A stretch of 41,122 nt of DNA from positions 1 through 41,122 of IMG/VR virus record IMGVR_UViG_3300042522_000110. One strand, given 5' to 3'. The DNA is from a virus. Each line of letters begins with the position of its first letter. Position 1 is the stretch's first letter. This document shows positions 1-41,122 of this stretch, piece after piece. The translations under genes were made by a program, and so were the position numbers. The notes beneath the pieces were generated by a model. The model was not told the origin of the DNA, did not search any database, and saw only the letters and a list, made by a program, of their open reading frames with translations.

Positions 1-127
1 CCTCGTTCCTTCAGTATACCACATGCGCAACCGTGGTCAACCATGCGAGTAATAGCGGCCTCCGATACGGTTTCAGCTGCAGCCACCGCGACTGCAGCAC
101 CGCGCGCGTCCTTACGGATAGCGCCGA
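1..127. repeat. Terminal direct repeat, left copy
   Basis: These bases are identical to the last 127 bases of the window (40996-41122). An exact overlap of 127 bases equals a common maximum k-mer length in short-read assembly, so it most likely marks a circularised contig and not a physical terminal repeat. The sequence is non-coding on both strands as far as I can see and carries a minus-strand promoter at 13-40. Confidence 0.95.
13..40 (-). promoter_or_regulatory. Sigma-70 type promoter P1 (leftward)
   Basis: Read on the minus strand: a -35 box TTGACC (40-35), a 16-nt spacer, and a -10 box TATACT (18-13) with an extended -10 TG (TGGTATACT). Because the genome is circular it points into 40995-40865, where the RlpA-like gene begins. 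The spacer contains GCGCATG, which is also found in the spacers of the promoters at 395-422 and 40517-40544. The same promoter is repeated at 41008-41035. Confidence 0.75.
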
Positions 128-394: not shown

Positions 395-422
395 AGTATA
401 GCCCATGCGCCGCCCTGATCAA
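395..422 (-). promoter_or_regulatory. Sigma-70 type promoter P2 (leftward)
   Basis: On the minus strand: -35 TTGATC (422-417), 16-nt spacer, -10 TATACT (400-395). It strongly resembles P1: CTTCAGTATA, then four partly matching bases, then ATGCGC on the plus strand in both. It overlaps the last codons of the VRR-NUC gene and would drive only the 61-residue gene before the terminator. Confidence 0.7.
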
Positions 423-1396: not shown

Positions 1397-2743
1397 CTAA
1401 ATGCCATGCCGCTTAGCCAGTCGCGCTTGATAGACGCGTTCCGCCCATCCTCGCTTGTAGCCGCGTTGCTGCGCTAGCTCGCGGAGGGCTTCAAGGTCAC
1501 GGGCTGATGATTGCTCACGCCGCTTAGCGCGTGCTGCCATCTCAATCAGCTCCCCCTCAACTTGCTGCAGCTCCCGGCGTTCCTGTGGCGCGAACACATG
1601 ACCGCACTCGCGGCATACCTGCACAGCACTGGCGCTGGTAGCAAAGCACTGCGGGCACACCTTGACTGATGGCGCTTGCTCGCGGTCGCGTTTTTTGATG
1701 CCATCTAGTGACCACTCGCGTGGTTCCAGATGGTGGCCAAGCCTGAGCGTGTTGCCGACATGATCCAGCACCACAGCACGCTTACCCGGTTGCGGGCGCA
1801 AGCACCGACCGATCATCTGCAGATGCAGCGCCACAGATGCCGTAGGGCGCAGCAGGATGCAGCCGCCGACGCTTGGCACGTCCACGCCTTCACCAATCAA
1901 TGCGCAACTGGTGAGCACCTTGATGTCACCTACTGCTAGCCGCTGCAGCAGCTCGCGGCGCTGTGCGGCATCCATGCTGCCGTCAATACTGGCCGCGGCG
2001 ATACCTGCTGACTGGAAGAGTGCTGCCACTGCCTCCGCGTGTGCCACAGAGCAGCAGAACGCAATCGCCGTTTGCCCTAGCAGGTGCTTGCGGTAGTGGC
2101 CAAGGCAGTCGCCCATGATCGTGCCGACGCGCTGCTCAGCTTCGCGCTGATCAAAGTCACCCATGCGCTTGCGTAGGCCGGTGGAGTCAAACCCCGGCGG
2201 CGCCAGCACCTTGGCAGCGGCAAGATAGCCGGCATCCGTCAGTTGCTCCGCTGTTGGCCCTTGCACCATCGCTTGGTAGTGCTCGCCTAGGCCGCGGCCA
2301 TCGCTGCGGATCGGCGTTGCGGTAACGCCTAACAGCTTGGCGGCATGGAAGTGGGCGATCACCTTGGCCCAGGTGCCGGCGGTGGTGTGGTGCGCCTCAT
2401 CCACCACCAGCAACTGGAAGAAGCCACGCGGCAGCAGGTGCAGCCTGCGCGCCAGTGTCTGCACACTGGCAACCTGCACGGTGCGGGAGAGATCCATTGG
2501 ATTGCCGGCGCTGATGCGGCCATGCGGCACCGACATGGCGCGGCTGGCTTGATCCAGCAGCTCTTGCCGGTGCACGAGGACAATCACGCGGTTGCCCTTC
2601 TTAGCAGCTTGCTCAGCGATATAGCTAAAGCACACCGTCTTGCCGCCGCCGGTGGGCAATACCGCTAGGACTGATTTATGCCCAAGCTGGTATTGCAGTC
2701 GGATGTCGGTGATGAGTTGTTGTTGATAGGGGCGGAGTTGCAT
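1397..2743 (-). CDS. SF2 DEAD/DEAH-box helicase with zinc ribbon
   Basis: An ATP-dependent superfamily 2 helicase. Walker A PTGGGKT is at about residues 30-36, the DEAH box (VVDEAHH) at 115-118, motif III as GVTATP, and the second RecA domain has SCALIGEGVDVPS and QMIGRCLRP (motifs V and VI, arginine fingers). A C-terminal zinc ribbon (CPQC...CREC) precedes a charged helical tail. The layout matches phage replication or recombination helicases that accompany VRR-NUC proteins. Its ATG overlaps the stop codon of the upstream helicase-methyltransferase in a TGATG junction, so the two are probably translationally coupled. The ATG at 2743 is chosen over a GTG one codon earlier because of that junction. 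Confidence 0.93.
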   Translation of the reverse strand: MQLRPYQQQLITDIRLQYQLGHKSVLAVLPTGGGKTVCFSYIAEQAAKKGNRVIVLVHRQELLDQASRAMSVPHGRISAGNPMDLSRTVQVASVQTLARRLHLLPRGFFQLLVVDEAHHTTAGTWAKVIAHFHAAKLLGVTATPIRSDGRGLGEHYQAMVQGPTAEQLTDAGYLAAAKVLAPPGFDSTGLRKRMGDFDQREAEQRVGTIMGDCLGHYRKHLLGQTAIAFCCSVAHAEAVAALFQSAGIAAASIDGSMDAAQRRELLQRLAVGDIKVLTSCALIGEGVDVPSVGGCILLRPTASVALHLQMIGRCLRPQPGKRAVVLDHVGNTLRLGHHLEPREWSLDGIKKRDREQAPSVKVCPQCFATSASAVQVCRECGHVFAPQERRELQQVEGELIEMAARAKRREQSSARDLEALRELAQQRGYKRGWAERVYQARLAKRHGI

Positions 2744-5001
2744 CACACCAGCACTCCTTGACGATTGCTAGCAACCTCAGTCAGATTCTTGACTGCGCAG
2801 TTGAAATACGACGGCTTCAGCTCAAAGCCGACAAACTGGCGCCCGGCTTGGATACTGCAGTAGCCTTCGCTGCCGATGCCGGCGAACGGGCTAAGCACCA
2901 CGTCTCCTGGGTTGCTCCACAGTTGCAGTCCGCGGCGGATCACCTCAAGCTGCAGCGGGCAGATGTGGCGCTCATCCTCGTTGGCGCGTGCACTGCGGTA
3001 CTGCAGCGTGTCTGATGGGTTGATATCCATCCACACAGGACTGGCGTAGCGCTGCCAGATATTGATGGAGTCCTTGATCGGGTCACCGCTTTTGGCTGGT
3101 GGATTCTCACCGGCAAACTCGGTGAATGGTCCGGCCACTGGCTCTGGGTTGTCGCCCAGCTTGCGCACGGTCACCAAATAGTCAGGGATGCCCTGGCGGC
3201 TGAGCGCAGAGTCCTTGCGCACTTGCTTATGCAGTAGGCCGATTGCCTTGGTGCGCTGCATGGCGGTGACTGGATCCTTCCAGATGCACACCTCGCTATG
3301 GAACACAAATCCAGCAGATTGGAAGATGCGCAGCATGTCGCCGCGAAAATCTTTCACACCAATGAAGCCATCGCGCTCTTTACTGCTGGGTAAATTCATG
3401 CAATGGAAGCTGATCAGCCGGCCGGGCATCATCACGCGATGGAGCTCAGCGGCCAGGAATCCGAAGTGATCGAAGAACTCCTGCTCAGTGCGGCTGTTGC
3501 CCATATCGCGGTCGCTGTTGCTGTAGGTGTAGAGCGAAGCGAATGGTGGGCTGAAAATACTGTAGTGGATTGAGTTGTCGTCCAGCTGCTTAATGCTCTC
3601 CACGCAGTCGCCCATATACATGTCCCATCCGTCGCCGGACTTGTGTTCAGTGACATGCGGCGCCACTTGGCGTTGGATCTTCTTGAGTTGTTCCATGGTT
3701 TGTTGCTTCATGATTTCAACCATTGATTGAGCCATCTGGATGCTGTCCGCTTCCTTGCGGCGGATGTTGTCGATCACGCGGCCTTCTGCCACGTCGTAGA
3801 TGATGTGAGCATTGACGGGTTGCTCTTGGCCAAATCGCCAGCAGCGGCGGATGGCTTGATAGAACGCCTCATAGCTGTGCGACAGCCCGACAAATGCGAC
3901 GTTGTGGCACCGCTGGAAGTTGAGGCCAAAGCCAAAGATGCTGGGCTTGCTGACCAGGACTCGGATTTTGCCATCTTGAAAGTCGATGGCAGCCTGCCGC
4001 TTGTGGTCATCGCTGTCGCTGCCTGACACCTCAACCGCGCCGTTGATGGCAGCAGTCAGCGCCTTGGATTCATCATTGAGATCACACCACACCAGCCACT
4101 GCTCGGTGTTGCTGTTGGCAAGATTGGCAGCAGCGGCCACGCGGAGAGCGAGGGATGCCTTGCGCACCTTGCGTTGGTCGTTGAGCGTGCGAGCCTCCAT
4201 GGCGAATAGCGCCATCTGGCCGCCATCACCTGCTGTTGCCTCCCGCGGCGTCTCAACCGTGCAGTCCTGGATCTGCAGCGCCGGCAGCACAAAGTTGCCG
4301 TCTTCATAGCCGAGGTCTGATGGCTTGCGGATGGTCACCGCCCAGCTGCAAACCCACTCCCAGAACTTGCTCTTTGCGTGACCTTTGAGCCGCCACTTAG
4401 CAGTGTCGCCGCCGTCATGCACGAAGAACATGGCCAGCATCTCGGTGCGGGTCATGACGCCAATGAACTCAGCGTGGTTGCCAAGCTCCATGTGGTCATT
4501 CGGCGCCGGCGTCGCCGAGCACGCCAGCCGGTATGGCGTCTGCGCGAATGACTCGATGATCTGGTTGCGGATCTTGCCGGTGTATGCCTTGAGGATGCTG
4601 GACTCATCAAGCACTACGCCGGAGAAGGCTGTGGCATCGAAGTGCGCCAGCTTCTCGTAGTTGGTCACCGTAATGCCGGGCTTGACCTCGGCCTGCGTCG
4701 CGGCAAACGAGCACGGGATGCCGAACTTGCTGCCCTCGCGGACGGTCTGATGCGCCACGGCAAGCGGCGCCAGCACCAACACTTTGCCGCCAGTCTGCAG
4801 GTGGACTTGATGCGCCCACTCAAGCTGCATGGCGGTCTTGCCCATGCCGCAGTCAGCCCAGATGCAGAACTTGCCGACACGGCAAGCCATGGTCACGATG
4901 TCCCGCTGAAACGGAAACAGCGGCGCGGTGAACTGCTGCGGGTCGAAGCCGGCAACAGGTGCTGCAGTGGATTTGGAAGCTAGGAACTGTTGGTAGGTCA
5001 T
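2743..5001 (-). CDS. SNF2-like helicase fused to DNA (N4/N6) methyltransferase
   Basis: A two-enzyme fusion of 752 residues. The N-terminal part (about 25-440) is an SF2/SNF2-like ATPase: Walker A GMGKT at 52-56, LDESS as motif II, CSATPAPND as motif III, GFGLNFQRC and QAIRRCWRFGQ as motifs V and VI. The C-terminal part (about 455-752) is a DNA methyltransferase with the catalytic SPPF motif at 484-487 and the AdoMet-binding LSPFAGIGSEG at 703-713. Motif IV thus precedes motif I, the beta-class order. SPP(F/Y/W) is more typical of N4-cytosine enzymes, so the modified base is probably C4 but unproven. No nuclease domain is present. It is the first gene of the leftward block, and its start faces the RHH gene across a short divergent region. 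Confidence 0.9.
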   Translation of the reverse strand: MTYQQFLASKSTAAPVAGFDPQQFTAPLFPFQRDIVTMACRVGKFCIWADCGMGKTAMQLEWAHQVHLQTGGKVLVLAPLAVAHQTVREGSKFGIPCSFAATQAEVKPGITVTNYEKLAHFDATAFSGVVLDESSILKAYTGKIRNQIIESFAQTPYRLACSATPAPNDHMELGNHAEFIGVMTRTEMLAMFFVHDGGDTAKWRLKGHAKSKFWEWVCSWAVTIRKPSDLGYEDGNFVLPALQIQDCTVETPREATAGDGGQMALFAMEARTLNDQRKVRKASLALRVAAAANLANSNTEQWLVWCDLNDESKALTAAINGAVEVSGSDSDDHKRQAAIDFQDGKIRVLVSKPSIFGFGLNFQRCHNVAFVGLSHSYEAFYQAIRRCWRFGQEQPVNAHIIYDVAEGRVIDNIRRKEADSIQMAQSMVEIMKQQTMEQLKKIQRQVAPHVTEHKSGDGWDMYMGDCVESIKQLDDNSIHYSIFSPPFASLYTYSNSDRDMGNSRTEQEFFDHFGFLAAELHRVMMPGRLISFHCMNLPSSKERDGFIGVKDFRGDMLRIFQSAGFVFHSEVCIWKDPVTAMQRTKAIGLLHKQVRKDSALSRQGIPDYLVTVRKLGDNPEPVAGPFTEFAGENPPAKSGDPIKDSINIWQRYASPVWMDINPSDTLQYRSARANEDERHICPLQLEVIRRGLQLWSNPGDVVLSPFAGIGSEGYCSIQAGRQFVGFELKPSYFNCAVKNLTEVASNRQGVLV

Positions 5002-5017: not shown

Positions 5018-5045
5018 TTACAACCCTAGCAGGTTCCACTAGACT
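5018..5045 (+). promoter_or_regulatory. Candidate rightward promoter of the replication block
   Basis: TTACAA (5018-5023), a 16-nt spacer and TAGACT (5040-5045) lie in the divergent gap between the helicase-methyltransferase and the RHH gene. The spacing matches the leftward promoters, but the boxes are weaker and there is no GCGCATG in the spacer. No convincing leftward promoter for 5001 could be picked out by eye. Confidence 0.4.
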
Positions 5046-5067
5046 GCGCCAGCATCCGATAGGACCC

Positions 5068-7277: not shown

Positions 7278-7489
7278 GTGGGTGTGGACGGCGAGATCGC
7301 AGGCTGCGACTGGGTTTTGAGCCGTCCTATCCCCGTATGGTCCTACATAGGGTTTAAGAGTTTCCTAATCCCCCTCCCACTCCCCCTCTTTATCCCATTT
7401 TATTTAGAGGTTAGGACGGTAGGACGGTAGGACAAGACCAGTTGCCGCAAGGCGTCTCACCGTCCAAACCCCACGAACTGCGTTAGGAC
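7271..7489. repeat. TAGGAC/GTCCTA repeat cluster, candidate replication origin
   Basis: This span overlaps the last codons of the primase gene and most of the 253-base gap before the next gene. GTCCTA occurs at 7271, 7324 and 7340. Its complement TAGGAC occurs at 7412, 7420, 7428 and 7484, with the first three in an 8-bp tandem array (TAGGACGG, TAGGACGG, TAGGACAA). Between the two orientations lies a pyrimidine-rich, AT-containing stretch (about 7363-7405). Direct and inverted copies next to a primase-helicase are what an iteron-type origin or an autoregulatory operator looks like. No gene is seen in the gap. Confidence 0.55.
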
Positions 7490-7530
7490 GCCGCTTTCTG
7501 CCTATGCTCCGCCTCGATTGGAACCACTGA

Positions 7531-7816: not shown

Positions 7817-7963
7817 ATGACCCAAGCAATGGCGTATGCCGCGGCCATTGCCGATAACGCCATTGATGACGGCGTGCCCCTGCCCATGGAGCTGGTCGAC
7901 AGCTTCGCCGCTGATTACGAACGCATCATCACCAGCCTCGTCACTGCCGCCACCGCCAAATGA
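7817..7963 (+). CDS. Small helical protein of unknown function (48 aa)
   Basis: Not recognised. An alanine-rich, acidic helical protein (AYAAAIADNAIDD, DSFAADYERIITSL). An upstream in-frame ATG at 7754 would give 69 residues but would overlap the preceding gene by 59 bases; the ATG at 7817, five bases after that stop, is preferred. Neither start has a strong ribosome binding site. Its stop overlaps the start of the sliding-clamp gene (ATGA), which supports expression as part of the replication block. Confidence 0.5.
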   Translation: MTQAMAYAAAIADNAIDDGVPLPMELVDSFAADYERIITSLVTAATAK

Positions 7964-9000
7964 AAGCCGTCACTTGTCAAGCCGATCTGGATCACGCGTT
8001 GCGCACCATTGCGCCTGCTGTTGGCCATCGCAGCAGTCACGCGATTCTTGATTGCTGCCTGATCCAAGCCGCTGGTGGTGTCATGACCATCACTGGCTTC
8101 AACCTTGACCTCGGCATCACCGTCACCATTCCCGCTGCAGTGGAGACCGATGGCGCTGTAGCGCTGCCGTATCGACTGCTGGCTGGCCTTGTAAGCCGCT
8201 TTGACGGCGATGAGGCGGTAACGCTCGCAGATGGCGCTCTGACGGCTTCTGGGGCCTCCTACGGGCTTGCTGCGGCTGATGCGGCGGATTACCCCGCGCT
8301 GCCGGTTGTAGACGCCGCTACGAGCGAGCTGCACCTATCCGCTGGTATCCGCGCCTGCATGGCAGCTGCCAGCACCGACGCCAGCAAGCAGATGCTTCAA
8401 GGCATCCACCTTGGCAGTGGCCACATGGAAGCCACAGATGGCCATCGCCTCATGCGTTACGCCATTGACCTACCAGACGGCCTAGATCTCGTGCTACCAG
8501 CCAGCACCATGCGCCTGCTGCAGGATCGCGTGGTCACCATTGCCGTTGCCAAAGGGCAAGCTGTAATTGACGCAGGCGATGGCATCACCATCTACAGCCG
8601 CATCATTGATGGCACCTACCCAGACGTGGCCAAACTGGTACCTAGCGAGTTCAAGCACACCATCACCGCCGACCGCCGCCGCCTGACGCGTGCCCTAGAG
8701 CGTGTCGCCATCATTGCCGATGCGCACAACTCCGTCGTCAAGATCGAGGCAACAGGCAGCACCATCGCCATCACCGCCGAAGCTGATGCCAACAATGGCA
8801 AGGAGCTGCTCAAGGCGGAAGGCACCGCCACTGGCGCATGGGCCTTCAACGTCCACTACCTGCTAGACGGCATCAAGGCATTCAAGCCCGCAGAAGCTAT
8901 TACACTGCAGGCCAATACGGCAACCACGCCCGTGGTATTGACACCTGATGCCGTGGACGGTGTAACGTATCTTGTAATGCCTGTGCAAATCAAGGGCTAA
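7960..9000 (+). CDS. dnaN: DNA polymerase III beta subunit-like sliding clamp
   Basis: A 346-residue homologue of the bacterial beta clamp, the ring that holds a polymerase on DNA. Visible signatures are the three-domain length (bacterial clamps are about 370 residues), LQGIHLGSGHMEATDGHRL in the second domain, IIDGTYPDVAKLVP (like the bacterial IdG.fPdy..viP), and the C-terminal YLVMPVQIKG that corresponds to the usual MPMRL end. The gene starts within the stop codon of the preceding small gene. As the genome has no polymerase, the clamp probably recruits host polymerase III or another host clamp-binding protein. Clear family call; the partner is inferred. Confidence 0.9.
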   Translation: MKAVTCQADLDHALRTIAPAVGHRSSHAILDCCLIQAAGGVMTITGFNLDLGITVTIPAAVETDGAVALPYRLLAGLVSRFDGDEAVTLADGALTASGASYGLAAADAADYPALPVVDAATSELHLSAGIRACMAAASTDASKQMLQGIHLGSGHMEATDGHRLMRYAIDLPDGLDLVLPASTMRLLQDRVVTIAVAKGQAVIDAGDGITIYSRIIDGTYPDVAKLVPSEFKHTITADRRRLTRALERVAIIADAHNSVVKIEATGSTIAITAEADANNGKELLKAEGTATGAWAFNVHYLLDGIKAFKPAEAITLQANTATTPVVLTPDAVDGVTYLVMPVQIKG

Positions 9001-9003
9001 TAG

Positions 9004-9327
9004 GTGGCAAAGAAGAGCACTAAGGATGAGATTCAGAACCGCGTCAATGTGGTTTATGACCTCATCCTGCGTGCTCATAGCCACCATCAGATCGTTCAAC
9101 ACGGTTCCGAGCTGTGGGGCGTCAGTGAGCGCCAAGTGCGCGATTACATGGCGGAAGCGCGCAAGCTGATTGCCCTTGACTCGGAGCTAGAACGCCCGCA
9201 ATGGCTGCAAGCTGCACTAGCAAGGCTGCAGGATTACGAACGCGAAGCACGCGCTAAAGGTAATCTCAGCATTGCAATCAAAGCGCTAGAAGATCAAGCC
9301 AAGTTGCTGCGGTTTGAGATCTCGTAG
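9004..9327 (+). CDS. Terminase small subunit (putative)
   Basis: A 107-residue protein with a helix-turn-helix-like N-terminal half (SHHQIVQHGSELWGVSERQVRDYMAEARKLI) and a long C-terminal helix (LARLQDYEREARAKGNLSIAIKALEDQ). That is the usual plan of DNA-recognising small terminase subunits, which form a ring and bring the large subunit to the packaging site. GTG start immediately after the clamp gene. Two small genes separate it from the large subunit. The call rests on fold pattern, size and position. Confidence 0.7.
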   Translation: MAKKSTKDEIQNRVNVVYDLILRAHSHHQIVQHGSELWGVSERQVRDYMAEARKLIALDSELERPQWLQAALARLQDYEREARAKGNLSIAIKALEDQAKLLRFEIS

Positions 9328-9351
9328 ACTGGCACATAAGCCAATAACGCC

Positions 9352-11440: not shown

Positions 11441-11761
11441 ATGCTCAAGGGCGCTGAACTACTCGCCAAGGTCAAAGAACTGGGCGATATGCCAAAGTCC
11501 GAACTGGTGCGCGCTTGCGGCTATGTCGTCAAGGATCGCGTGGCATTCACGCAGTTCTATGAGGCACTGCTAGAAGCTAAAGGGCTTGACCTCAACGGCA
11601 AGACTGCCAAGCGTGGCCGCGGCTTGACCTACAAAGCCAAGGTGCAATTCAACGGCAAACTGCAAATCGGTGATGGCTACCTGCGTGAAATGGGATACGA
11701 ACCCGGCGCTGAGTTTGACATCAAGATTGGCCGCAACAGCATCACGCTGACTGCTGCTTAA
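11441..11761 (+). CDS. Cyanobacterial AbrB (cyAbrB)-type transcriptional regulator
   Basis: A 106-residue protein with the architecture of cyanobacterial AbrB proteins. An N-terminal conserved region has GAELLAKVKELGDMPKSELVRACGY and FYEALLEAKGLDLNG. The C-terminal AbrB-like DNA-binding hairpin (about 60-104) has YKAKVQFNGKLQIGDGYLREMG, then YEPGAEFDIKIGRNSITL. In cyanobacteria these proteins act as global regulators, notably of carbon and nitrogen genes. Phages can use such homologues to alter host transcription or chromosome structure; that use here is inference. It lies between terminase and portal, transcribed with late genes. Full-length relative to the core family, with no obvious lesions. 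Confidence 0.88.
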   Translation: MLKGAELLAKVKELGDMPKSELVRACGYVVKDRVAFTQFYEALLEAKGLDLNGKTAKRGRGLTYKAKVQFNGKLQIGDGYLREMGYEPGAEFDIKIGRNSITLTAA

Positions 11762-11787
11762 ACTGCACCTATGACTGCGGCGCTGTA

Positions 11788-16028: not shown

Positions 16029-16112
16029 TATTTGAGTGTCTGCTCGTGATGGCTGCGCCACATAGAGCCTAGGGCTGCGCCCACATCCGTAAACCCTTTT
16101 TGAGGATTAGTC

Positions 16113-17565: not shown

Positions 17566-17763
17566 GTGGGACTGTTCGCCTTCAGGCGACGCCAGGAACG
17601 TGAGGCTGCTTCTAAAGAGGCAGCCTCTTTTCCTATTGCTGAGCCTGCGCTTAAACTTGAAATGACGGAGCCACCGGCTGATGGCAATAACAATCGTGGC
17701 CACGCCCGGCGCGGCAAACGCAAACTCTTACCTGACGCTGGCAGCAGCGGAGCTGATTATTGA
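17566..17763 (+). CDS. Small hypothetical protein (65 aa)
   Basis: GTG start two bases after the decoration-protein stop gives VGLFAFRRRQEREAASKEAA, a central SFPIAEPALKLEMTEPP and a basic NNNRGHARRGKRK tail. The opening G-L-F-A-x-R-R-x-x-E-x-E-A-A-S and a DGNNNR-like element resemble small proteins seen after capsid genes in other siphoviruses. The end overlaps the next gene by 83 bases, so part of the C-terminal sequence is constrained by that gene. Function unknown. Confidence 0.5.
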   Translation: MGLFAFRRRQEREAASKEAASFPIAEPALKLEMTEPPADGNNNRGHARRGKRKLLPDAGSSGADY

Positions 17764-19524: not shown

Positions 19525-19943
19525 GCAGCACCTACAACGACGTTCGCGCCGCGATTGAAGGGCGCATTGGCACGGAGATGGCGTTGTCGCCCGTTTACCC
19601 TGTCAGCTATCAAAACGTACCGTTTACGCCGCCCAACAACACGCCATGGGTGCAAGTATTCATCCGCTTTGGCGATAACAGCTATGCCACGCTGCTACCG
19701 ACTGGCGGCGTTGGATTCAACCGCCAGACCGGTACGCTAGTGGTCAATGTCTTTACGCCACAAGGGCAAGGCACCGCAGCGAACTTCACCATTGCAGAGC
19801 GCATCAAAGACAAGTTTGACCGCGCCAAGTTCAGCAGCATCATCTTTGACGCGGCATCCGGGCCATCTCAAGTAACACCAGCAGCGCCTGAGCCTTACTT
19901 TCAGACTCAGCTAACTGCTACGTTTGAAGCGTATCTAGACTGA
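19521..19943 (+). CDS. Tail terminator protein (putative, DUF4128-like)
   Basis: A 140-residue protein. The frame is open further upstream, but ATG 19521 with GGGAGG just before it and an ATGA overlap with the preceding gene is the natural start. TYNDVRAAIEGRIGTEM, the NTPWVQVFIRFGDN strand, and GTLVVNVFTPQGQGT then IAERIKDKFDR fit tail terminators, which cap the tail tube and set its end. It precedes the major tail protein, as expected. Confidence 0.8.
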   Translation: MSSTYNDVRAAIEGRIGTEMALSPVYPVSYQNVPFTPPNNTPWVQVFIRFGDNSYATLLPTGGVGFNRQTGTLVVNVFTPQGQGTAANFTIAERIKDKFDRAKFSSIIFDAASGPSQVTPAAPEPYFQTQLTATFEAYLD

Positions 19944-20734: not shown

Positions 20735-20761
20735 GCCCCTAGTTGCACTAGGGGCTTTTTT
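20735..20761 (+). terminator. Intrinsic terminator after the major tail gene
   Basis: GCCCCTAGT (20735-20743), loop TGC, ACTAGGGGC (20747-20755) and a run of six T residues. A perfect 9-bp stem with U-tract. It separates the highly expressed head and tail-tube genes from the tail-tip genes, probably allowing partial read-through. Confidence 0.95.
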
Positions 20762-20795
20762 GTGTTTAAAGTATCAATGAACTGAATAATTTTGC

Positions 20796-21152: not shown

Positions 21153-21340
21153 TCAAGCTGGTTAAACAGGATCATCTGCTGCGGCTGATGATGCGCTTAG
21201 CCAGAGATCTTGGATACACGCTGTTGGAGCTATCAGAGCGACTCACCTACGAGGAGCTGCAGCTCTGGGGTTTGATGTATCAAGTCGAATATCAAGAAGC
21301 AGAAGAGGCAAGCCAAAAGGCTAGTCGGCGTAGAATGTAA
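20796..21340 (+). CDS. Tail assembly chaperone, frameshifted long form (gpGT-like)
   Basis: Made by a -1 slip at A AAA AAC (21143-21149) followed by 63 codons to TAA at 21338-21340. The extension reads LIKLVKQDHLLRLMMRLARDLGYTLLELSERLTYEELQLWGLMYQV in overall pattern; a leucine-rich helix followed by S-x-x-LT-x-E-EL-x-x-W is typical of the T part of these chaperones. There is no start codon with a good ribosome binding site for the second frame, so fusion by frameshift is the likely route. About 181 residues in total. Confidence 0.88.
21143..21149 (+). promoter_or_regulatory. Programmed -1 frameshift site
   Basis: The heptamer A AAA AAC is in the right phase (codons GCA AAA AAC TGA), with the zero-frame stop immediately after it. 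A stop next to the slip site increases the effect of pausing. It joins gpG-like and T-like reading frames. Confidence 0.9.
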
Positions 21341-21358: not shown

Positions 21359-23788
21359 ATGTCAGTCGTAGCAAATGTTGCGATTAACGTTGATGCCGCC
21401 AACGCAATCCAGCAGCTCAACCGCGTTAAGACTGCCGCCACTGACGTACAAGGCGGCTTTAACTCAGCGGCAACAGGCGCAAAGGGATTAGGTGGGGCAT
21501 TGCAAGCTGCGCTTGGTCCGCTGCTGACGATCACAACAGCATTGACTGCCGTCAAGGCTGGCTTGGATGTTGCATTCGAACGTGGTGCTGCAGAGCAGCG
21601 GCTGCGCAATCTCACCAGCAGCACGGATGAATTCAACGCAGCCATGGCACTGGCGGCCAATTCATCGGCAAAATTTGGACTGACGCAAACAGAGTCAACC
21701 AAAGCGCTGGCCGATGTTTACGGCCGATTGAAGGGCGTTGGCTTTGGCCTGCAAGAGACTGGCCAGATCTATCAAGGCTTTAATGCCATCGCGCTGCAGT
21801 CCGGTCTTGCTGGCGCAGAAGCAGCAGGTGCATTCTTCCAGCTCAGCCAGGCACTAGGCAAAGGCAAGCTGAACGGTGATGAGTTTGTCATTGTTGCGGA
21901 GCGGATGCCACAGTTGCTTGACGCAATTGCACAGACCACCGGCAAGAGCCGCGGCGAGCTACAAGGCATGGCTCAAGACGGCAAGATCACAAGCCAGGTC
22001 TTGTACGAGGCATTGTCTGGCGCTGCGGCGGCGTCCGAGAACCTAAATGGCAAGCTGACCGCACAGCAACAGACCTTCAACAACCTGCGGCAGGTTACGG
22101 ATCAACTGCTCAACAGCATTGGCCAGGTGTTTGCACCTGCTGTTGTTGCTGGCGCTCAAGGACTAGCCACTGTCGGCCAGATGCTTGCTGACTGGTGGAG
22201 CTATTTGGGGAATGTGATCTTTCCCAAGGTCTACGAGGCAATCCAACCTGTCATTGCATCACTGCAGGCAGCATTCAAAGACATTGACTTTGACGCTATT
22301 CGCGTAGCGATTCAAAGCATCATGATCAAGGGTTTTGAGAATGCCATTGTTGTCATTAGCAATTTCTCGAAGGTTCTTGCATTTGTCATTGATAGCTTTA
22401 AGGCGCTATCGCAGAATCCTGTCTTTCAATTCATTGCTGAGCAGGTTGGGCGCCTTGCCAACTTCCTAGGGCTGACCAATGACAAGGTTGGCAAGTTCAA
22501 GGAAGAGCAGCAAAAAGTCAATGAGGCAGCAGCCGAATCAGTCAAGAACTATTCCAGCTTGCCACCTAAGATTGACGACGCAAAAGAAGCAGCCAAGAAA
22601 CTAAAGGAGGAGCAGCAAGCCGTCACCAAGGCAATTCAGGAAGCCAGCCAAGCTGCTGATGCTTCCGCCAAAGTCGTTGATGCTGTAGCTGGACAGCGTG
22701 CTTCGATCACGCAGGCTTATCTGCAGGCTGAGATGCAGATCAATGACGTGCTGCTCCAGCAGGCGCAACGTCAGCTTGATAACGCACAGAACCAAGCGCA
22801 GCGAGTCAAAGCAGCAAAAGATATCTATGACATCACTGTCAGGCAAGCTGAGCTTGAATATCAAGCAACGCAAGCGCAAATTGCTGCTGAGGTAGAGAAA
22901 GCAAGGCTGGCGGTCGTTTCCGCTGAGCAAAAAGCCAAAGAGGTAGAGGCTGTTGTCCGCCTAGCTGCAGCGCAAGGCACTGCCAACGCCGAGCATTACA
23001 AAGCGCTTGATGCAATCAGAGAGGCTGTGGACTTAGCAAAAATCCAAGGCGGCACAGTTGCAGTGGTTGCAGAGCAACAAGAACGCGCCGCTCGTGCGGT
23101 GCGAGATGGCAGCATCGAAGCGGCAAAGGCTGCCTATCAGCAAGATATCGTGGCGAAGGCTACGGGCTCTGCTGCAGCGGCATCAGGCACGTTTGCAAGC
23201 AATATGGAACGAGCTGCAACGGCGGCGCAAAAAGTGTCATCTGCCACGTCTGGTGCCGTAGTCGGCATGACAAGCGCCACCGCAGTTGGCGCTCAATACA
23301 ACTTCGGCCCTGCAGGCGAGAATGCTGCTTTTAAGGCTGCATATGAAGCGGCACTGAACAAGCTGCAGATGGATCAAACTCGCATGTTCGTTAGCGTTGC
23401 AGAAGCTGAGCGCAAATACGCTGAACTAAATCAACGGTTCTTTGAGCAAGCCACTAGCTACAATAAACAATTTTGGGAGAACAGCCGCAAGAATGCTGAA
23501 GAATCTTGGTTCAAGGGTGGCGGCACAATCTTGCCTGGCATGTCATCCGCTAACCGCCCGGCAGCCACTGGTATGCAGCAATATGGCATCGGCACCGGAG
23601 CAAGCATGGCCACGCCGCAAGTCAACATTACCACTGGCCCTGTAACTCAAATGGGTGGCACAAACTACGTCACGATGAGCGACCTGCAACAGGCAGCATC
23701 CACGGCGGCACGTCAAGGCGCCAACATGGCACTGAATCAACTGCAGAGCAACCCATCGCTGCGTAGGACCATTGGGGTAGCACGATGA
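21359..23788 (+). CDS. Tail tape measure protein
   Basis: An 809-residue protein that sets tail length. The N-terminal half contains the tape measure domain (FGLTQTESTKALADVYGRLKG, GFNAIALQSGLAGAEAAGAFF, GDEFVIVAERMPQLLDAIAQTTG, MAQDGKITSQVLYEAL). Next comes a hydrophobic stretch near residues 320-370 and a long Ala/Gln/Glu-rich coiled coil (about 390-620). By the usual rule of about 0.15 nm per residue, the tail would be roughly 120 nm. The stop overlaps the next start (ATGA). Confidence 0.93.
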   Translation: MSVVANVAINVDAANAIQQLNRVKTAATDVQGGFNSAATGAKGLGGALQAALGPLLTITTALTAVKAGLDVAFERGAAEQRLRNLTSSTDEFNAAMALAANSSAKFGLTQTESTKALADVYGRLKGVGFGLQETGQIYQGFNAIALQSGLAGAEAAGAFFQLSQALGKGKLNGDEFVIVAERMPQLLDAIAQTTGKSRGELQGMAQDGKITSQVLYEALSGAAAASENLNGKLTAQQQTFNNLRQVTDQLLNSIGQVFAPAVVAGAQGLATVGQMLADWWSYLGNVIFPKVYEAIQPVIASLQAAFKDIDFDAIRVAIQSIMIKGFENAIVVISNFSKVLAFVIDSFKALSQNPVFQFIAEQVGRLANFLGLTNDKVGKFKEEQQKVNEAAAESVKNYSSLPPKIDDAKEAAKKLKEEQQAVTKAIQEASQAADASAKVVDAVAGQRASITQAYLQAEMQINDVLLQQAQRQLDNAQNQAQRVKAAKDIYDITVRQAELEYQATQAQIAAEVEKARLAVVSAEQKAKEVEAVVRLAAAQGTANAEHYKALDAIREAVDLAKIQGGTVAVVAEQQERAARAVRDGSIEAAKAAYQQDIVAKATGSAAAASGTFASNMERAATAAQKVSSATSGAVVGMTSATAVGAQYNFGPAGENAAFKAAYEAALNKLQMDQTRMFVSVAEAERKYAELNQRFFEQATSYNKQFWENSRKNAEESWFKGGGTILPGMSSANRPAATGMQQYGIGTGASMATPQVNITTGPVTQMGGTNYVTMSDLQQAASTAARQGANMALNQLQSNPSLRRTIGVAR

Positions 23789-26870: not shown

Positions 26871-27799
26871 TGGCTATCTGGATTGGTGAAGCTGGCGGCA
26901 TTCGCATCGGGCGCCCCGAATCCGAGCGCATTTATGCATACATCAATCCCTCCGAAGTCGATCCTGGAAACAAACGCTTTGGCTTTGCAGACGCCGGCTC
27001 AGCTCTGATTACAGGAGATCAGATTTGGATTCGACGCGTAGAGGAGTCAGGTCAAGTCAGTTCCAGCTTGCTTGATTTTGTAGACCCTTCTGGATGGGTT
27101 GATAACACGCGGCGGAATGATGGGCAGTGGTACGTCAACGCTGACAGCGTTGGTGGAATACGGCTTTTTGATAACTGGCAATCAGCTATAAACAACACAT
27201 ACGCCGATGCCATTGCACTAGCCACTCCAGCCTCAACTTACCGCGTTAGTTACGAGATCGTACAAAGTGGCGCCGACTATTTAGCGCAAACTGTTAGCTG
27301 GGTGCTGAATACAGATCGAGATGTTGCTGATTACACGAGCCTAGGGGATTCTTTCAAGCAACAAATGAGCACGCTGGTATCAGGAAGTGGCGAACTTGAT
27401 TGCTTTTTTGATACGACATGGAGAGGCGGTGCTCCTGTTTACTCAGGCCAAGAGGAGTCGGCAATTTACATGCACCGATTAGCATTACGGCAGCAAATAG
27501 GTGCAAAATTTACAGGCGTGTTTTTAATGAAGCGGTCACAGACTGTCCCTATTGGCACGCTAATTGATGCGTCCGAGGCTAGCCGCGAACTGTTTTATAC
27601 GGCCGATTGTATTATTACGTCTGTTGCGACAGAGCTAATTGCTGATCAGCCAATTCACAGCAGGATAACGTTTGTTACTACAGGTCCGATTCAGTTGGTC
27701 TTCAGCACTCCGGTGTCCTACCTGCTGCAAGAGCAGGCGCCATATGATCGGATCCTGCAGGAATCGGGCTTTGGCGTGCTTTTGGAGACTCCAGATTAG
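26870..27799 (+). CDS. Tail tip structural protein of unknown family (309 aa)
   Basis: A beta-rich protein opening with WIGEAGGIRIGRPESERIYAY and IWIRRVEESGQVSSSLLDF. Later regions show WVDNTRRNDGQWYVNADSVGGIRLFDNW and MHRLALRQQIGAKFTGVFLMK. No enzymatic motif or transmembrane segment. Its place between tube-like protein and tail fibre suggests a collar or adaptor that anchors the fibre. Not recognised further. Confidence 0.65.
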   Translation: MAIWIGEAGGIRIGRPESERIYAYINPSEVDPGNKRFGFADAGSALITGDQIWIRRVEESGQVSSSLLDFVDPSGWVDNTRRNDGQWYVNADSVGGIRLFDNWQSAINNTYADAIALATPASTYRVSYEIVQSGADYLAQTVSWVLNTDRDVADYTSLGDSFKQQMSTLVSGSGELDCFFDTTWRGGAPVYSGQEESAIYMHRLALRQQIGAKFTGVFLMKRSQTVPIGTLIDASEASRELFYTADCIITSVATELIADQPIHSRITFVTTGPIQLVFSTPVSYLLQEQAPYDRILQESGFGVLLETPD

Positions 27800-27829
27800 A
27801 CTTGGGCAATAGCGGTGGTTTCTTAAGCA

Positions 27830-33656: not shown

Positions 33657-33842
33657 ATGAATCGCCTTGCTGATTACATTGCCTTGGCGGTTGCCGTTCA
33701 TGGCGTCGCTTTGATCGTGGTCAACCTGACCCCTACCCCTAAAGACAACAAAGCGCTAAGAAAAACCGCCAAACTTGCGGTCAAACTTTATAGGGCTATC
33801 GAAGTGGTTGCTGGTGTTGTCACTCCATTGGTTAAGCGATGA
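33657..33842 (+). CDS. Small membrane protein, second lysis candidate (61 aa)
   Basis: YIALAVAVHGVALIVVNLTPTP (about 7-28) is a transmembrane segment, followed by a basic amphipathic helix (NKALRKTAKLAVKLYRAIEVV) and a second weakly hydrophobic stretch (VVAGVVTPLV). Stop overlaps the endolysin start (ATGA). It is a good holin candidate because it is small, has one or two membrane segments, and is coupled to the endolysin. Confidence 0.65.
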   Translation: MNRLADYIALAVAVHGVALIVVNLTPTPKDNKALRKTAKLAVKLYRAIEVVAGVVTPLVKR

Positions 33843-34897
33843 TCAAACTGACCGATCTGTTTAAGTATTACAAGCACGGCACGCCACATCAGATGGCTGC
33901 CATCTCTGAATTAGAGGCTGAGCTAGTAAAGGTTGCGCCGCAGGTCTTTAGCAAGGATCAACCGTGGTATAAAACTTGGCAGGCTGGCGGCAAGTTGCAT
34001 AATTATGAGCCAGCCATAAAACTCATTAAAGAGTTTGAGGGCGTGCATCTCAGCGCTTACCCTGATCCATTGCATGGATGGGAGGTGGCAACCATCGGCT
34101 ATGGCACCACGCGCTATTCAGACGGCCGCAAGGTGCAGCGCGGTGACAAGATCACCGTGATTGATGCTGATCAGTTGCTGACGCTTGAGGTTGAGCACAT
34201 CGCAGCAAAACTGCGCAATAGCGTGCCGTTTTGGAATGAGATGACGGGCAATAAGCAGTGCGCGTTGATCTCGTTTGCCTACAACCTTGGCGCTGGCTTC
34301 TACGGCAGTACTGGATTTGAAACCATCAGCAAATGCCTTGCCGGCAAGGATTGGAGTGCAGTGCCAGCGGCGATGGAGTTGTACCGCAACCCAGGCAGTG
34401 CTGTAGAAGCAGGATTGCTGCGCCGCCGCCGTGCAGAAGGCCGTTTGTGGACTGGTGAGCAGCAGCAGGATCCTGCCAAACTATCGCCCAATAGTGCATT
34501 TACGGCTCGCATCACGCCGCATGTGCAGCTTGGTGAGTTTGCGTTGTTTCAAGAGGCGCGGCGCTTTGACCATCAATATCAGCTCGACACAGCAGCAGAG
34601 CTAGCAGCATTCCTTGAGCGTGCACGCGTTAAGTTTGGAGGCAAGCCTGTAGTCATCACCAGTGGATATCGTCCGCGTGCCATCAATGCAGCGGTAGGCG
34701 GCTCCAGTGGTAGCGAGCATCTATACGATGCTCCTGACGTTGGTGCAGTTGATTTCTACATCCGTGAAGTCAACATCAACCATGTGCAAGAGTGGTGCGA
34801 CACTAACTGGCCGTATTCACTTGGCTACGGCGCACCTAAAGGATTTGTGCATTTAGGAATGCGTCGCGGCAGGCCACGCGTGCGCTGGGATTACTAA
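33839..34897 (+). CDS. Two-domain endolysin: GH24 lysozyme plus M15 peptidase
   Basis: A 352-residue wall hydrolase. A 50-residue N-terminal extension has no signal peptide. The GH24 (T4 lysozyme-like) domain has the catalytic glutamate in LIKEFEG at residue 67, aspartate 76 in YPDP and threonine 85 in VATIGYG; the 9-residue spacing between Glu and Asp matches T4 lysozyme. The C-terminal M15-like peptidase (about 230-352) has zinc ligands H294 (SEHLYDAPD), D305 (GAVDFY) and H338 (GFVHLGM). It would cleave both glycan and peptide. Two catalytic domains in one chain fit cyanobacterial walls with thick peptidoglycan. Preceded by the holin candidate. Confidence 0.92.
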   Translation: MIKLTDLFKYYKHGTPHQMAAISELEAELVKVAPQVFSKDQPWYKTWQAGGKLHNYEPAIKLIKEFEGVHLSAYPDPLHGWEVATIGYGTTRYSDGRKVQRGDKITVIDADQLLTLEVEHIAAKLRNSVPFWNEMTGNKQCALISFAYNLGAGFYGSTGFETISKCLAGKDWSAVPAAMELYRNPGSAVEAGLLRRRRAEGRLWTGEQQQDPAKLSPNSAFTARITPHVQLGEFALFQEARRFDHQYQLDTAAELAAFLERARVKFGGKPVVITSGYRPRAINAAVGGSSGSEHLYDAPDVGAVDFYIREVNINHVQEWCDTNWPYSLGYGAPKGFVHLGMRRGRPRVRWDY

Positions 34898-34920: not shown

Positions 34921-35238
34921 TTGGATCACTGCATTGATGGCGCAAACCTCATCCCAAAACGCAGTGCAAAACATAAATTCAGGCAACAGATCTTTGAAGC
35001 ATGGCAGCATCAATGCGCTTACTGTGGAGATCTGGCCGACACGTTAGATCATGTCAAACCGCGCCATAAAGGCGGCGCTACTGTGACGACTAACCTTGTG
35101 CCAGCCTGCAGGCCATGCAATCGAAATAAAGGCAGCGAAGAATGGCAGCAGTGGTTCAATCAGCAGGATTCTTATCTGCTAAATCGCGAGCTTGCTGTGC
35201 TGCACTGGATTCAAGCATCTGATGATAGAACACTTTAG
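34921..35238 (+). CDS. HNH endonuclease (105 aa)
   Basis: CAYCGDLADTLDHVKPRHKGGATVTTNLVPACRPCNRNKGS is a full HNH core: zinc CxxC twice, the DH pair (LDHV) and the final N-x-x-KG. The N-terminus DHCIDGANLIPKRSAKHKFRQ matches, as I recall, a family of small cyanophage HNH proteins starting D-x-x-DGANx-P. TTG start at 34921; no ATG is available in frame. It may be a homing endonuclease or a packaging-associated nuclease. Ends overlapping the stop of the sigma gene on the other strand. Confidence 0.85.
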   Translation: MDHCIDGANLIPKRSAKHKFRQQIFEAWQHQCAYCGDLADTLDHVKPRHKGGATVTTNLVPACRPCNRNKGSEEWQQWFNQQDSYLLNRELAVLHWIQASDDRTL

Positions 35239-36188
35239 CCTGCCATTCTTGCTGGTGGTCTTTGCACATTCCCGCTAGGCATACCCTCCAAGTGTTCCCG
35301 ACTTTCTGAATTGTTGGCGCCAAGGGGGGTGCCTGCCAGCGGGTTACCTATCAGCATACGAAGGCGACTAATGCCACGCCTTTGTATTTCGCACATGCGT
35401 GCACGTGATAAGCCCATGCGCTTCTCTAGATCATTCCACGGCACCGGATTGCGACTGTTGCGTGCATAGATAATTTCACGTGTGCGATCATCTAAATGCT
35501 CATCACAATAATCACGTACAGTTTCAAGCTGCCAATCGTATTCAACATCGTATTGCCTTTGATCGGCGATGATGTCTAAGATGTTGGATGATTCATCTTG
35601 CGCAGGCTTGTCAAGGCTTGTGACCCGGTAAGCCTGTTGCAATGTGTCAGATATCACCTTAGGAGTCACATCAAGCACTGCTGCAAGCTCAGCTATGGTC
35701 GCTGTGCGTCCGTGCTCTTGCGCAAATGCCTGTGCTGTTTTGTTTAGCTTGATCAGCATTTCATGCACGCCAAGCGGCAGCCTGATGATTGGATCGTATT
35801 GAATCAATGCGCGTCCAATTGATTGACGAATCCACCAGTAGGCATAGGTGCTGAACTTGTAACCGCGGGTGTAATCAAACAGCTCAACAGCACGCGCAAG
35901 ACCGATGTTGCCTTCTTGAATCAAATCCAGCATGTCAAGCGTTTGCGTGTTGCGCCTGCTGTACTTGCGTGCAACATGCACCACGAGTTGAAGGTTGGAT
36001 TGCATGAACTTCTGCCGCGCACGTTCGCCGCTACGCAGTTCACGGCGTTCTTGTGTTGTTAAGGGTCTTTCGAGATTCTTTAATTCTCTCCACTTTGCAA
36101 CACGGCGGCCAAGTTGTATCTCTTGTTGCGGTGTTAAAAGTGGATACCGCGCGATACTGTTCAGGTAGTCGCCAATAGCGTCAGACAT
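35235..36188 (-). CDS. RNA polymerase sigma-70 factor (group 2-like)
   Basis: A 317-residue primary-type sigma factor. Region 1.2: DAIGDYLNSIARYPLLTPQQEIQLGRRV. Region 2: FMQSNLQLVVHVARKY, LIQEGNIGLARAVELFDYTRGYKFSTYAYWWIRQSIGRAL. Region 3: GVHEMLIKLNKTAQAF with EHGRTATIAELAAVL. Region 4: LDDRTREIIYARN, VPWNDLEKRMGLSRARMCEIQRRGISRL. The region 1.2 wording resembles cyanobacterial group 2 sigmas; there is no region 1.1. The homology-supported start is ATG 36188; the frame extends further upstream. The phage could use it to redirect host RNA polymerase to phage promoters. Last gene of the leftward block; convergent with the HNH gene (4-base overlap). Confidence 0.92.
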   Translation of the reverse strand: MSDAIGDYLNSIARYPLLTPQQEIQLGRRVAKWRELKNLERPLTTQERRELRSGERARQKFMQSNLQLVVHVARKYSRRNTQTLDMLDLIQEGNIGLARAVELFDYTRGYKFSTYAYWWIRQSIGRALIQYDPIIRLPLGVHEMLIKLNKTAQAFAQEHGRTATIAELAAVLDVTPKVISDTLQQAYRVTSLDKPAQDESSNILDIIADQRQYDVEYDWQLETVRDYCDEHLDDRTREIIYARNSRNPVPWNDLEKRMGLSRARMCEIQRRGISRLRMLIGNPLAGTPLGANNSESREHLEGMPSGNVQRPPARMAG

Positions 36189-36210
36189 GAAAAATCCGTT
36201 AGTGCATACA

Positions 36211-36447
36211 ATGGAAGCACAATTCCACGGTGCTGCCAATGCTGCGCAGCTACGTGCGTTACATGCTGCAGCAGATTGGGGCGGACTGCTGGAATATGCA
36301 CTTTTGATAGCCGAGCAAGAGGCAAGCCAGCGGTCTCAAATCCACTGGCTTGCGCAGGAGGCGTCGGCAGCGTTGCGGACTGGCCTAGAGCAGTGGCACC
36401 TAGATGCCGCCGAGGAACTGCTTAGAGGGCGTCGTCGTGAGATCTGA
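36211..36447 (+). CDS. Small hypothetical protein opposite the early block (78 aa)
   Basis: Runs rightward between two leftward genes. EAQFHGAANAAQLRALHAAADWGGLLEYALLIAEQEASQRSQIHWLAQEA is an alanine- and glutamine-rich helical protein of a type I recall beside cyanophage sigma or recombination genes. An ATG at 36187 overlaps the sigma start head to head; ATG 36211 is preferred. Its end overlaps the dCTP deaminase gene by 48 bases. Unknown function; may be regulated by antisense arrangement. Confidence 0.55.
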   Translation: MEAQFHGAANAAQLRALHAAADWGGLLEYALLIAEQEASQRSQIHWLAQEASAALRTGLEQWHLDAAEELLRGRRREI

Positions 36448-36930
36448 GTTGTAATGGCCAGTAACGCTGTAGCTGGTCACTGGCTGCTGGCTCATGCGGA
36501 AGAACACCATCTGACCAATCTTCAAACCAGGCCACAGCGGCAGAGGTAGAAGCTGGCGGCTGTTTTTCAGCTCTAGGGTCAGTACGCTGCCATGCCAGCC
36601 GGGGTCGGCATAGCCAGCGTGCAGGTTTTCGTACCCTTCCCGTGCACGGCTGGATTTGAGGAAAAACAAGCCAGCAATGTTTTCTGGCATGTTGAACACC
36701 TCGATGGTCTGAGCAAGGATGAATTGCCCAGGCTTGAGTTCGTAGGGATTGTCTGCAGTGCGTCCCGCAATGCTGAGCGGGCGCATGTTGAGGTCTTCTG
36801 CGGACTCAATCATGATCGTGTCACCTAGCCGTAGATCAAGGCTGGCGGGATTGATCAATGACTCGTCGTAGTTTGGCACCATGCCGTCGGTGCATAGCGC
36901 TTTGATTTCGTAGTCGCAGAGGATGGTCAT
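36400..36930 (-). CDS. dcd: dCTP deaminase
   Basis: A 176-residue enzyme that converts dCTP to dUTP (possibly also dUTPase activity). Markers are INPASLDLRLGDTI, GQFILAQTIEVFNMPENIAG, LKSSRAREGYENLHAGYADPGWHGSVLTLELKNSR, with the catalytic glutamate in the LTLE element. Length is close to bacterial Dcd (about 190). It supplies thymidylate precursors in the host for phage DNA. It is transcribed leftward before the sigma factor gene; the small plus-strand gene at 36211-36447 overlaps its 3' end. Confidence 0.9.
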   Translation of the reverse strand: MTILCDYEIKALCTDGMVPNYDESLINPASLDLRLGDTIMIESAEDLNMRPLSIAGRTADNPYELKPGQFILAQTIEVFNMPENIAGLFFLKSSRAREGYENLHAGYADPGWHGSVLTLELKNSRQLLPLPLWPGLKIGQMVFFRMSQQPVTSYSVTGHYNSDLTTTPSKQFLGGI

Positions 36931-40516: not shown

Positions 40517-40544
40517 ATCCTACACCATGCGCAACCATGCGCAA
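40517..40544 (-). promoter_or_regulatory. Promoter P3 of the recombination block (leftward)
   Basis: On the minus strand: -35-like TTGCGC (40544-40539), 16-nt spacer, -10 TAGGAT (40522-40517). The spacer holds GCGCATG, and a second GTTGCGCATGG copy overlaps the -35. Weaker boxes than P1 and P2, so an activator or the phage sigma may help. It precedes the 57-residue gene with its strong ribosome binding site. Confidence 0.5.
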
Positions 40545-40995: not shown

Positions 40996-41122
40996 CCTCG
41001 TTCCTTCAGTATACCACATGCGCAACCGTGGTCAACCATGCGAGTAATAGCGGCCTCCGATACGGTTTCAGCTGCAGCCACCGCGACTGCAGCACCGCGC
41101 GCGTCCTTACGGATAGCGCCGA
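40996..41122. repeat. Terminal direct repeat, right copy
   Basis: Identical to 1-127; see that entry. It holds a second copy of promoter P1 (41008-41035) only because the circular sequence is written past its start. Confidence 0.95.

Follow-up and report, generated by a model that had tools for sequence, protein, structure and literature searches.

A full-length, group 2-like sigma factor is encoded by the uncultivated virus sequence studied here (IMG/VR record IMGVR_UViG_3300042522_000110, positions 1 to 41,122), and the whole stretch of 41,122 nucleotides is hereafter called the window. Comparison of its residues with those of related phages and of cyanobacteria indicates that the canonical -35 contacts are lost in the window's subclade and that the -10 reader is host-like. 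Among the explanations considered, we lean, with some reservation, towards a functional phage group 2 sigma factor of an old lineage that would take RNA polymerase to late promoters lacking a -35 element. Gene timing in small cyanobacterial siphoviruses is hardly known, and the sigma gene can be turned into a concrete hypothesis, consisting of a frozen -10 reader, an altered and exchanged -35 reader, candidate target sites and a candidate partner, which would connect the evolution of phage sigma factors with the cyanobacterial 'type 2' promoters that lack a -35 element.

Genome organisation

The window carries an exact direct terminal repeat of 127 bp (1-127 and 40996-41122) and is most likely the complete genome, of about 41 kb, of a cyanosiphovirus-like, uncultivated phage. 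Its major capsid DNA shares 80% identity with that of KBS-S-2A, a phage of Synechococcus WH7803, which makes a picocyanobacterial host likely, and the cyanobacterial affinity that had been proposed initially is borne out by this similarity together with the sigma tree described below. The leftward block runs from 5001 down past the origin of the record and continues from 41 kb as far as the sigma gene; it begins with a helicase-methylase fusion, a helicase, an HNH protein, a DPBB protein and exonuclease VIII, and ends with a RecT-like annealing protein, an HTH protein, SSB, dCTP deaminase and the sigma factor. The rightward block (5211-35238) starts with a primase-helicase, a DnaN-like clamp, terminase, portal and head genes, followed by tail genes (assigned by position), endolysin and HNH. 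The sigma gene had been described as the last gene of the early block, and it does close that leftward block, where it faces the lysis genes; it occupies the same spot in S-CBS1, KBS-S-2A and S-LBS1 and, by annotation, nearly the same position in S-CBS3. Its upstream neighbour encodes a dCTP deaminase (36400..36930, minus strand; phrog_1663 E 1e-48, Pfam DCD), and on its other side lies a convergent HNH endonuclease gene (34921..35238, plus strand), which follows the endolysin gene (33839-34897) and has a terminal overlap of 4 bp with the sigma stop.

The sigma factor and its domains

The interval of the initial annotation, 35235-36188, coincides exactly with an open reading frame of 317 amino acids on the minus strand (36188..35235; ATG at 36188, stop at 35235), the plus strand being ridden with stops. 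Region 1.2 occupies residues 3-35 (36084..36182; PF00140, E 1.4e-10), region 2 residues 56-129 (35802..36023; PF04542) and region 3 residues 130-190 (35619..35801; PF04539), all three over the Pfam cut-offs at E-values of about 1e-10, 3e-18 and 3e-11, respectively. Region 4 (residues 219-281, 35346..35534; PF04545) falls marginally short at 23.7 bits against a cut-off of 24.1; its helix-turn-helix is present in the structure model, and in the alignment the linker between regions 4.1 and 4.2 is three residues shorter than in host sigma factors. The proposal that regions 1.2 to 4 are recognisable thus stands in that all four are present, but region 4 is altered at the positions that contact the -35 element, which lie in the recognition helix of region 4.2, SRARMCEIQRRG (residues 261-272, 35373..35408). 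The KFSTYAYWWIRQ block in region 2, which serves core binding, -10 reading and melting, is host-like. Region 1.1 is absent, the protein beginning with region 1.2 at residue 3. A C-terminal extension, GNPLAGTPLG (35319..35348), located 3' of region 4, is kept across the subclade in close variants such as NNPMEGTPLG and SNPLADTPLG and is missing from host sigma factors; the sequence beyond it is variable and often truncated in the subclade.

The cyanobacterial RpoD/SigA family TIGR02997 matches the protein end to end (E=5e-68), with a score of 229.5 bits that lies well below the curated cut-off for membership of 384.5, the S-CBS1 sigma factor reaching 251 bits. The top sequence matches in the PDB are SigA, HrdB and SigB (E about 1e-42), and a Foldseek search with the AlphaFold model, in which the placement of the domains is uncertain, retrieved sigma chains of RNA polymerase complexes over the full length (E 1e-14); structure and sequence comparison together return primary and RpoS-type sigma subunits. 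ECF (group 4) sigma factors have regions 2 and 4 alone, and late sigma factors of the T4 gp55 type are compact, without regions 1.2 and 3. Having a region 3 (E 3e-11), the window's protein falls outside the former, and with both regions 1.2 and 3 present it is a full-length group 2-like factor unlike T4 gp55, as had been suggested. Nor is it a group 1 SigA, lacking region 1.1 and branching outside the SigA clade. The presence of regions 1.2 to 4 (region 4 marginally), the absence of region 1.1 (PMC2758279) and its branching in the tree place it in group 2; the -35-contact residues in region 4.2, a common trait of host group 2 factors that is not part of the published definition, are absent from the subclade.

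Phylogeny and known relatives

The phylogeny against cyanobacterial sigma factors that had been proposed as a check was run with IQ-TREE and puts the phage sigma factor in group 2, outside SigA. In this maximum-likelihood tree the window's subclade, S-CBS1, S-CBS3 and KBS-S-2A form one phage clade (support 100/97) that is nested in cyanobacterial group 2, outside the SigA reference L177 (NF005643, 702 bits) and not within any single host paralogue; a broader quick tree, which gave long-branch warnings, concurs with this placement. Homologues of more than 60% identity were found on about 85 contigs among the matches listed in the IMG/VR scans, and the nearest sigma factors in cyanobacterial genomes reach about 40% identity at most. 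Since the phage proteins form one clade within group 2, inside no single host paralogue, and host identity does not exceed about 40%, the tree and these identities identify the phage sigma factor as an old phage lineage and not as a recent host capture.

A group 2 sigma factor in a cyanosiphovirus is already known, and the novelty implied by the initial annotation was overstated: group 2-type sigma factors occur in cyanosiphoviruses of 30-108 kb and have been reported since 2009 (PMC2784084, PMC3751600, PMC6157547). The authors of the P-SS2 study proposed in 2009 that its sigma factors modulate host RNA polymerase (PMC2784084), and RpoD-like sigma factors are listed in the papers on KBS-S-2A (PMC3751600) and S-LBS1 (PMC6157547). 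The sigma factors of S-CBS1 and S-CBS3 (rpsD4) carry the annotation 'group 2' in their records and resemble that of the window in being full-length and group 2-type, in their gene position, which is opposite the endolysin gene and last or close to last in the leftward block, and in belonging to the same clade. They share 51% (S-CBS1, residues 3-210) and 40% (S-CBS3, residues 3-281) identity with the window's protein, from which they differ in their -35 helices, SRERIRQ and SREAIRQ; the GNPLAGTPLG tail was not found in either of them. Their naming presumably goes back to Huang et al. 2012. KBS-S-2A (PMC3751600) is similar to the window in genome architecture, head genes, sigma position and late TARAVT elements, whereas its RpoD-like sigma factor, at 42.6% identity, has the canonical helix SRERVRQ. 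The RpoD-like factor of S-LBS1 and ORF113 of P-SS2, the latter near dcd and ssb, are likewise group 2-type (PMC6157547, PMC2784084), but both are strongly diverged, with less than 40% identity to the window's protein, and lie in other gene contexts.

Among host proteins, cyanobacterial SigB-SigE have the same regions 1.2-4, no region 1.1 and the same -10 residues, and they can read -35-less type 2 promoters (PMC2758279); they share about 40% identity at most with the phage protein and keep E/D585 and R588. The phage sigma factors phiEco32 gp36, 7-11 gp47 and T4 gp55 likewise move host RNA polymerase to late promoters, but they are not group 2 types, and gp36 is without region 4 homology (PMC8948821). 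An altered and exchanged -35 helix, an 86-amino-acid partner gene and the late elements described below did not turn up in the open-access literature that we searched, which leaves out most subscription journals; in the same open-access literature we found no functional test of cyanosiphovirus group 2 sigma factors, whose annotation dates back more than ten years.

Promoter-reading residues and selection

In sigma70 structures, Y425, F427, T429, Y430, W433, W434 and Q437 (E. coli numbering, used throughout) read and melt the -10 element. We compared 61 distinct copies from the window's subclade with 103 cyanobacterial host copies; the equivalents of these seven residues are identical in 61/61 phage copies and nearly so in the 103 hosts. 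The equivalents of E585 and R588 are found in none of the 61 subclade copies, while in every one of the 103 hosts position 585 is E or D and position 588 is R. In the window's helix, E585, R588 and Q589 of sigma70 are replaced by A, C and E. Across the subclade, position 584 is kept basic (R or K), position 585 is A, G, S, T, Q or H, position 588 is C, Q, S, G or N, and position 589 is mostly E or D. The equivalents of T440 (-12) and H455 (extended -10), which hosts nearly always retain, are glycines in 59/61 and 60/61 subclade copies, respectively (G125 and G140 in the window). The description of the factor as primary-type is too simple: its -35 helix, -12 and extended -10 positions deviate from nearly all hosts sampled. 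The sigma factors of S-CBS1, S-CBS3 and KBS-S-2A retain E585 and R588. Four helix types occur in relatives (SRARMCEIQ, SRGHMCQLQ, SRSRMCDLQ and SKQTLQGAE), and the varying positions lie on one helix face.

The sigma gene is under strong purifying selection. Counting substitutions by per-codon parsimony on a tree built from 60 distinct UViG copies, we obtained 534 synonymous and 68 non-synonymous changes in region 2 (non-synonymous/synonymous ratio, N/S, 0.13), and the frame is intact in more than 80 UViGs. The recognition helix, with an N/S of 0.78, is one of the stretches of the folded protein that vary most, sites 263 and 270 being the two most changed in the whole sigma factor; the segment that follows directly is under strong constraint (N/S 0.18). 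Since the raw counts for the helix are overall under the neutral expectation, they point to relaxed or episodically diversifying selection and are no proof of positive selection. One relative (L053:1571-2521) carries a mosaic sigma gene that almost equals that of L057 over its first 100 codons and again over codons 241-292, and whose middle is window-type, so that a clade-B recognition helix stands on a clade-A middle; region 4 has therefore been exchanged by recombination.

Early and late promoters

Three candidate leftward promoters, all on the minus strand and all recurring in relatives, look canonical: TTGACC-N16-TATACT (13..40), TTGATC-N16-TATACT (395..422) and TTGCGC-N16-TAGGAT (40517..40544; TTGACC-N16-TAGGAT in relatives). 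Their 16-nt spacers have GCGCATG in common, as do those of several relatives, and this heptamer is possibly an operator. In a genome-wide scan for TTGACA/TATAAT the number of sites was no higher than in shuffled sequence, and the leftward sites alone stood out. The divergent region holds a candidate rightward promoter, TTACAA-N16-TAGACT (5018..5045, plus strand; TTGCAA-N16 in relatives), with an inverted-repeat putative operator in its spacer, and most relatives read also carry an inverted repeat there, in a promoter of the form TTACAA or TTGCAA-N16-TANNCT. The repeat of the window, CTAGCAG..CACTAG (5018-5060), lies between the -35 and -10 hexamers and is allelic in relatives; a ribbon-helix-helix-like small ORF is located nearby at about 5086, and the promoter is possibly autorepressed.

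On the late strand, -10-like hexamers near gene starts cluster about 29 nt upstream. The candidates, all on the plus strand, are TAGACT (9325..9330, 27 nt ahead of the start at 9352), TAAACT (11759..11764, 29 nt ahead of the portal gene), TAAACT (17652..17657, 29 nt ahead of the start at 17681 and following a terminator at 17602-17627), TAGACT (19936..19941, 31 nt ahead of 19967), TAAAGT (20767..20772, 29 nt ahead of 20796, following a terminator at 20735-20755 and also found in KBS-S-2A), TAGAAT (21331..21336, 28 nt ahead of the gene 21359-23788, which encodes 809 amino acids and is the tape-measure gene by position and size) and TAGACT (27797..27802, 33 nt ahead of 27830). These conform to TARAVT, present 27-37 nt ahead of late starts in the window's genus and in KBS-S-2A. 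In the window, 7 of 10 occurrences fall 24-38 nt before a late start (0.19 expected), and in KBS-S-2A, using the GenBank starts, 11 of 30 (0.63 expected), the motif ranking first among 180 column permutations; it was defined on the same data after the sites had been seen, and some sites of the two phages are orthologous, so that the p-values cannot count as independent or pre-registered. The enrichment was regained in 7/7 close relatives with a simple automatic gene caller, many of the sites being orthologous. Controls gave 0/9 on the opposite strand and 0/8 in Syn5, and before early genes the element was seen in 0/1 cases in the window and 1/2 in KBS-S-2A. Stop codons were considered as the source of the signal and set aside, TAR without AVT falling in the zone in only 15/429 cases against 8.1 expected. 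A TTGACA-like box at the late sites matched at 2-4 of 6 positions, as in random sequence, and stacking the late sites at the -10 element gave no shared upstream -35 motif, with few sites and low power.

The late element is not specific to sigma-bearing phages. S-CBS4, in which no sigma gene was detected, has 5/20 TARAVT sites against 0.32 expected, which refutes such specificity and suggests that host RNA polymerase may read the element; in distant sigma carriers it is also weak (G016 1/10, p 0.16; G017 0/4; G018 2/7). Moreover, KBS-S-2A combines the SRERVRQ helix with -35-less late sites, so the change of the helix and the promoter type are not tightly linked.

The divergent 86-amino-acid gene

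An unannotated, divergent ORF of 86 codons (36187..36447, plus strand) fills the gap that separates the start of the sigma gene from the stop of the dCTP deaminase gene, and the start codons of this ORF and of the sigma gene overlap within the palindrome CATG (36186-36189). The ORF very probably represents a genuine gene, as it is free of stops in 83 UViG loci, varies most at codon position 3 and has a protein identity that exceeds DNA identity. The product is predicted to be all-helical (model pLDDT 68); it matched no family, and Foldseek gave no significant result. Wherever sufficient flanking sequence of the window's sigma subclade was inspected, the gene was present, and it also adjoins the distant sigma genes of G016-G018 (62-71% identity); no copy was found in KBS-S-2A, S-CBS1 and S-CBS3, whose sigma factors keep the -35 residues. 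Read on the tree, its association with the altered -35 helix is one co-occurrence, not many. The small polypeptide phi32_gp79 inhibits host-sigma and stimulates phage-sigma transcription (PMC8948821), and by analogy we conjecture that the 86-amino-acid protein might be a co-factor or an anti-sigma factor.

Role of the sigma factor

If the window encodes a functional sigma factor for -35-less late promoters, SigA with host RNA polymerase would transcribe the leftward early block from promoters of the TTGACC-N16-TATACT kind, and the phage sigma factor, as the last product of this block, would capture core enzyme and direct it to -10-only promoters without TTGACA, including those of the late structural genes. 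Its region 4 might read another sequence or merely hold the core, and the divergent 86-amino-acid protein may help or restrain it. The promoter patterns are compatible with such a role in switching on late genes. The group 2 sigma factor SigD can read -35-less promoters in vitro (PMC2758279), and the phage sigma factor phi32_gp36, which has no homology to region 4, recognises late promoters made of a single element (PMC8948821). A bolder form, which we regard as unlikely as it stands, is a two-part switch in which the sigma factor supplies a universal -10 reader, the 86-amino-acid protein replaces or controls the -35 contact, and the swapped helix constitutes the late-promoter code of the lineage. 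Region 4 might also read a -35 sequence that is peculiar to each lineage and changes along with the helix, which would amount to a private promoter code and is a version of the same explanation. The four helix types, with their variation on one face, and the mosaic in L053 argue for such a code, but the stacked late sites, few as they are and low in power, share no upstream motif, and we hold this version to be doubtful.

The sigma factor could instead compete for core in host takeover, displacing SigA and the group 2 sigma factors so that host genes are shut down or redirected, while host holoenzyme reads the -35-less late promoters. S-CBS4 has similar late elements although a sigma factor went undetected there, the late genes of Ma-LMM01 appear to be SigA-dependent (PMC5780444), and altered -35 reading would make the protein a poor activator and a possible competitor; a mere competitor, however, would not need the frozen -10-reading and melting residues, and the recognition helix is changed and exchanged, not decayed, with the constrained segment following it, which leaves this reading a minor chance in our view. 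It is rather improbable that the protein acts as a broad group 2-like factor without temporal specificity, sustaining -10/-35 promoters of phage and host when SigA is depleted or inhibited, as under stress or at the light-dark transition: its position in group 2, the overlap of group 2 factors with SigA specificity (PMC2758279) and the canonical promoter use that the P-SS2 authors expected of their sigma factor (PMC2784084) agree with it, but the loss of the E585/R588 equivalents in 61/61 subclade copies speaks against canonical TTGACA reading. That the gene is a non-functional host relic, as the score of region 4 slightly under the Pfam cut-off might hint, we consider extremely improbable, given that purifying selection is strong and that more than 80 UViGs have the frame intact.

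Further features of the genome

The DnaN-like sliding clamp (7960-9000, plus strand; phrog_947 2e-60) is encoded close upstream of the terminase module in relatives, and the scanned proteins of the window included none that was recognised as a DNA polymerase. A T4-like late-transcription role for this clamp was considered, and the evidence spoke neither for nor against it. The non-coding stretch 7278-7530 contains direct repeats of the GGTAGGAC type that resemble origin iterons; in relatives we found three unrelated repeat types, apparently co-changing with the allele of the adjacent primase-helicase. As a late promoter this gap of 250 bp was set aside, since it resembles a replication origin with allele-specific iterons. 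An Rfam search matched no family. The spaced direct repeat GGCTGCGCC at 16029-16112, with its copies about 21 bp apart, lies upstream of the capsid gene and is conserved to KBS-S-2A; it was dismissed as a capsid promoter, there being no promoter-like hexamer. The fusion at the head of the leftward block (2743-5001, minus strand) is a single protein of 752 amino acids that joins a DEAD-like helicase to an N6/N4 DNA methyltransferase.
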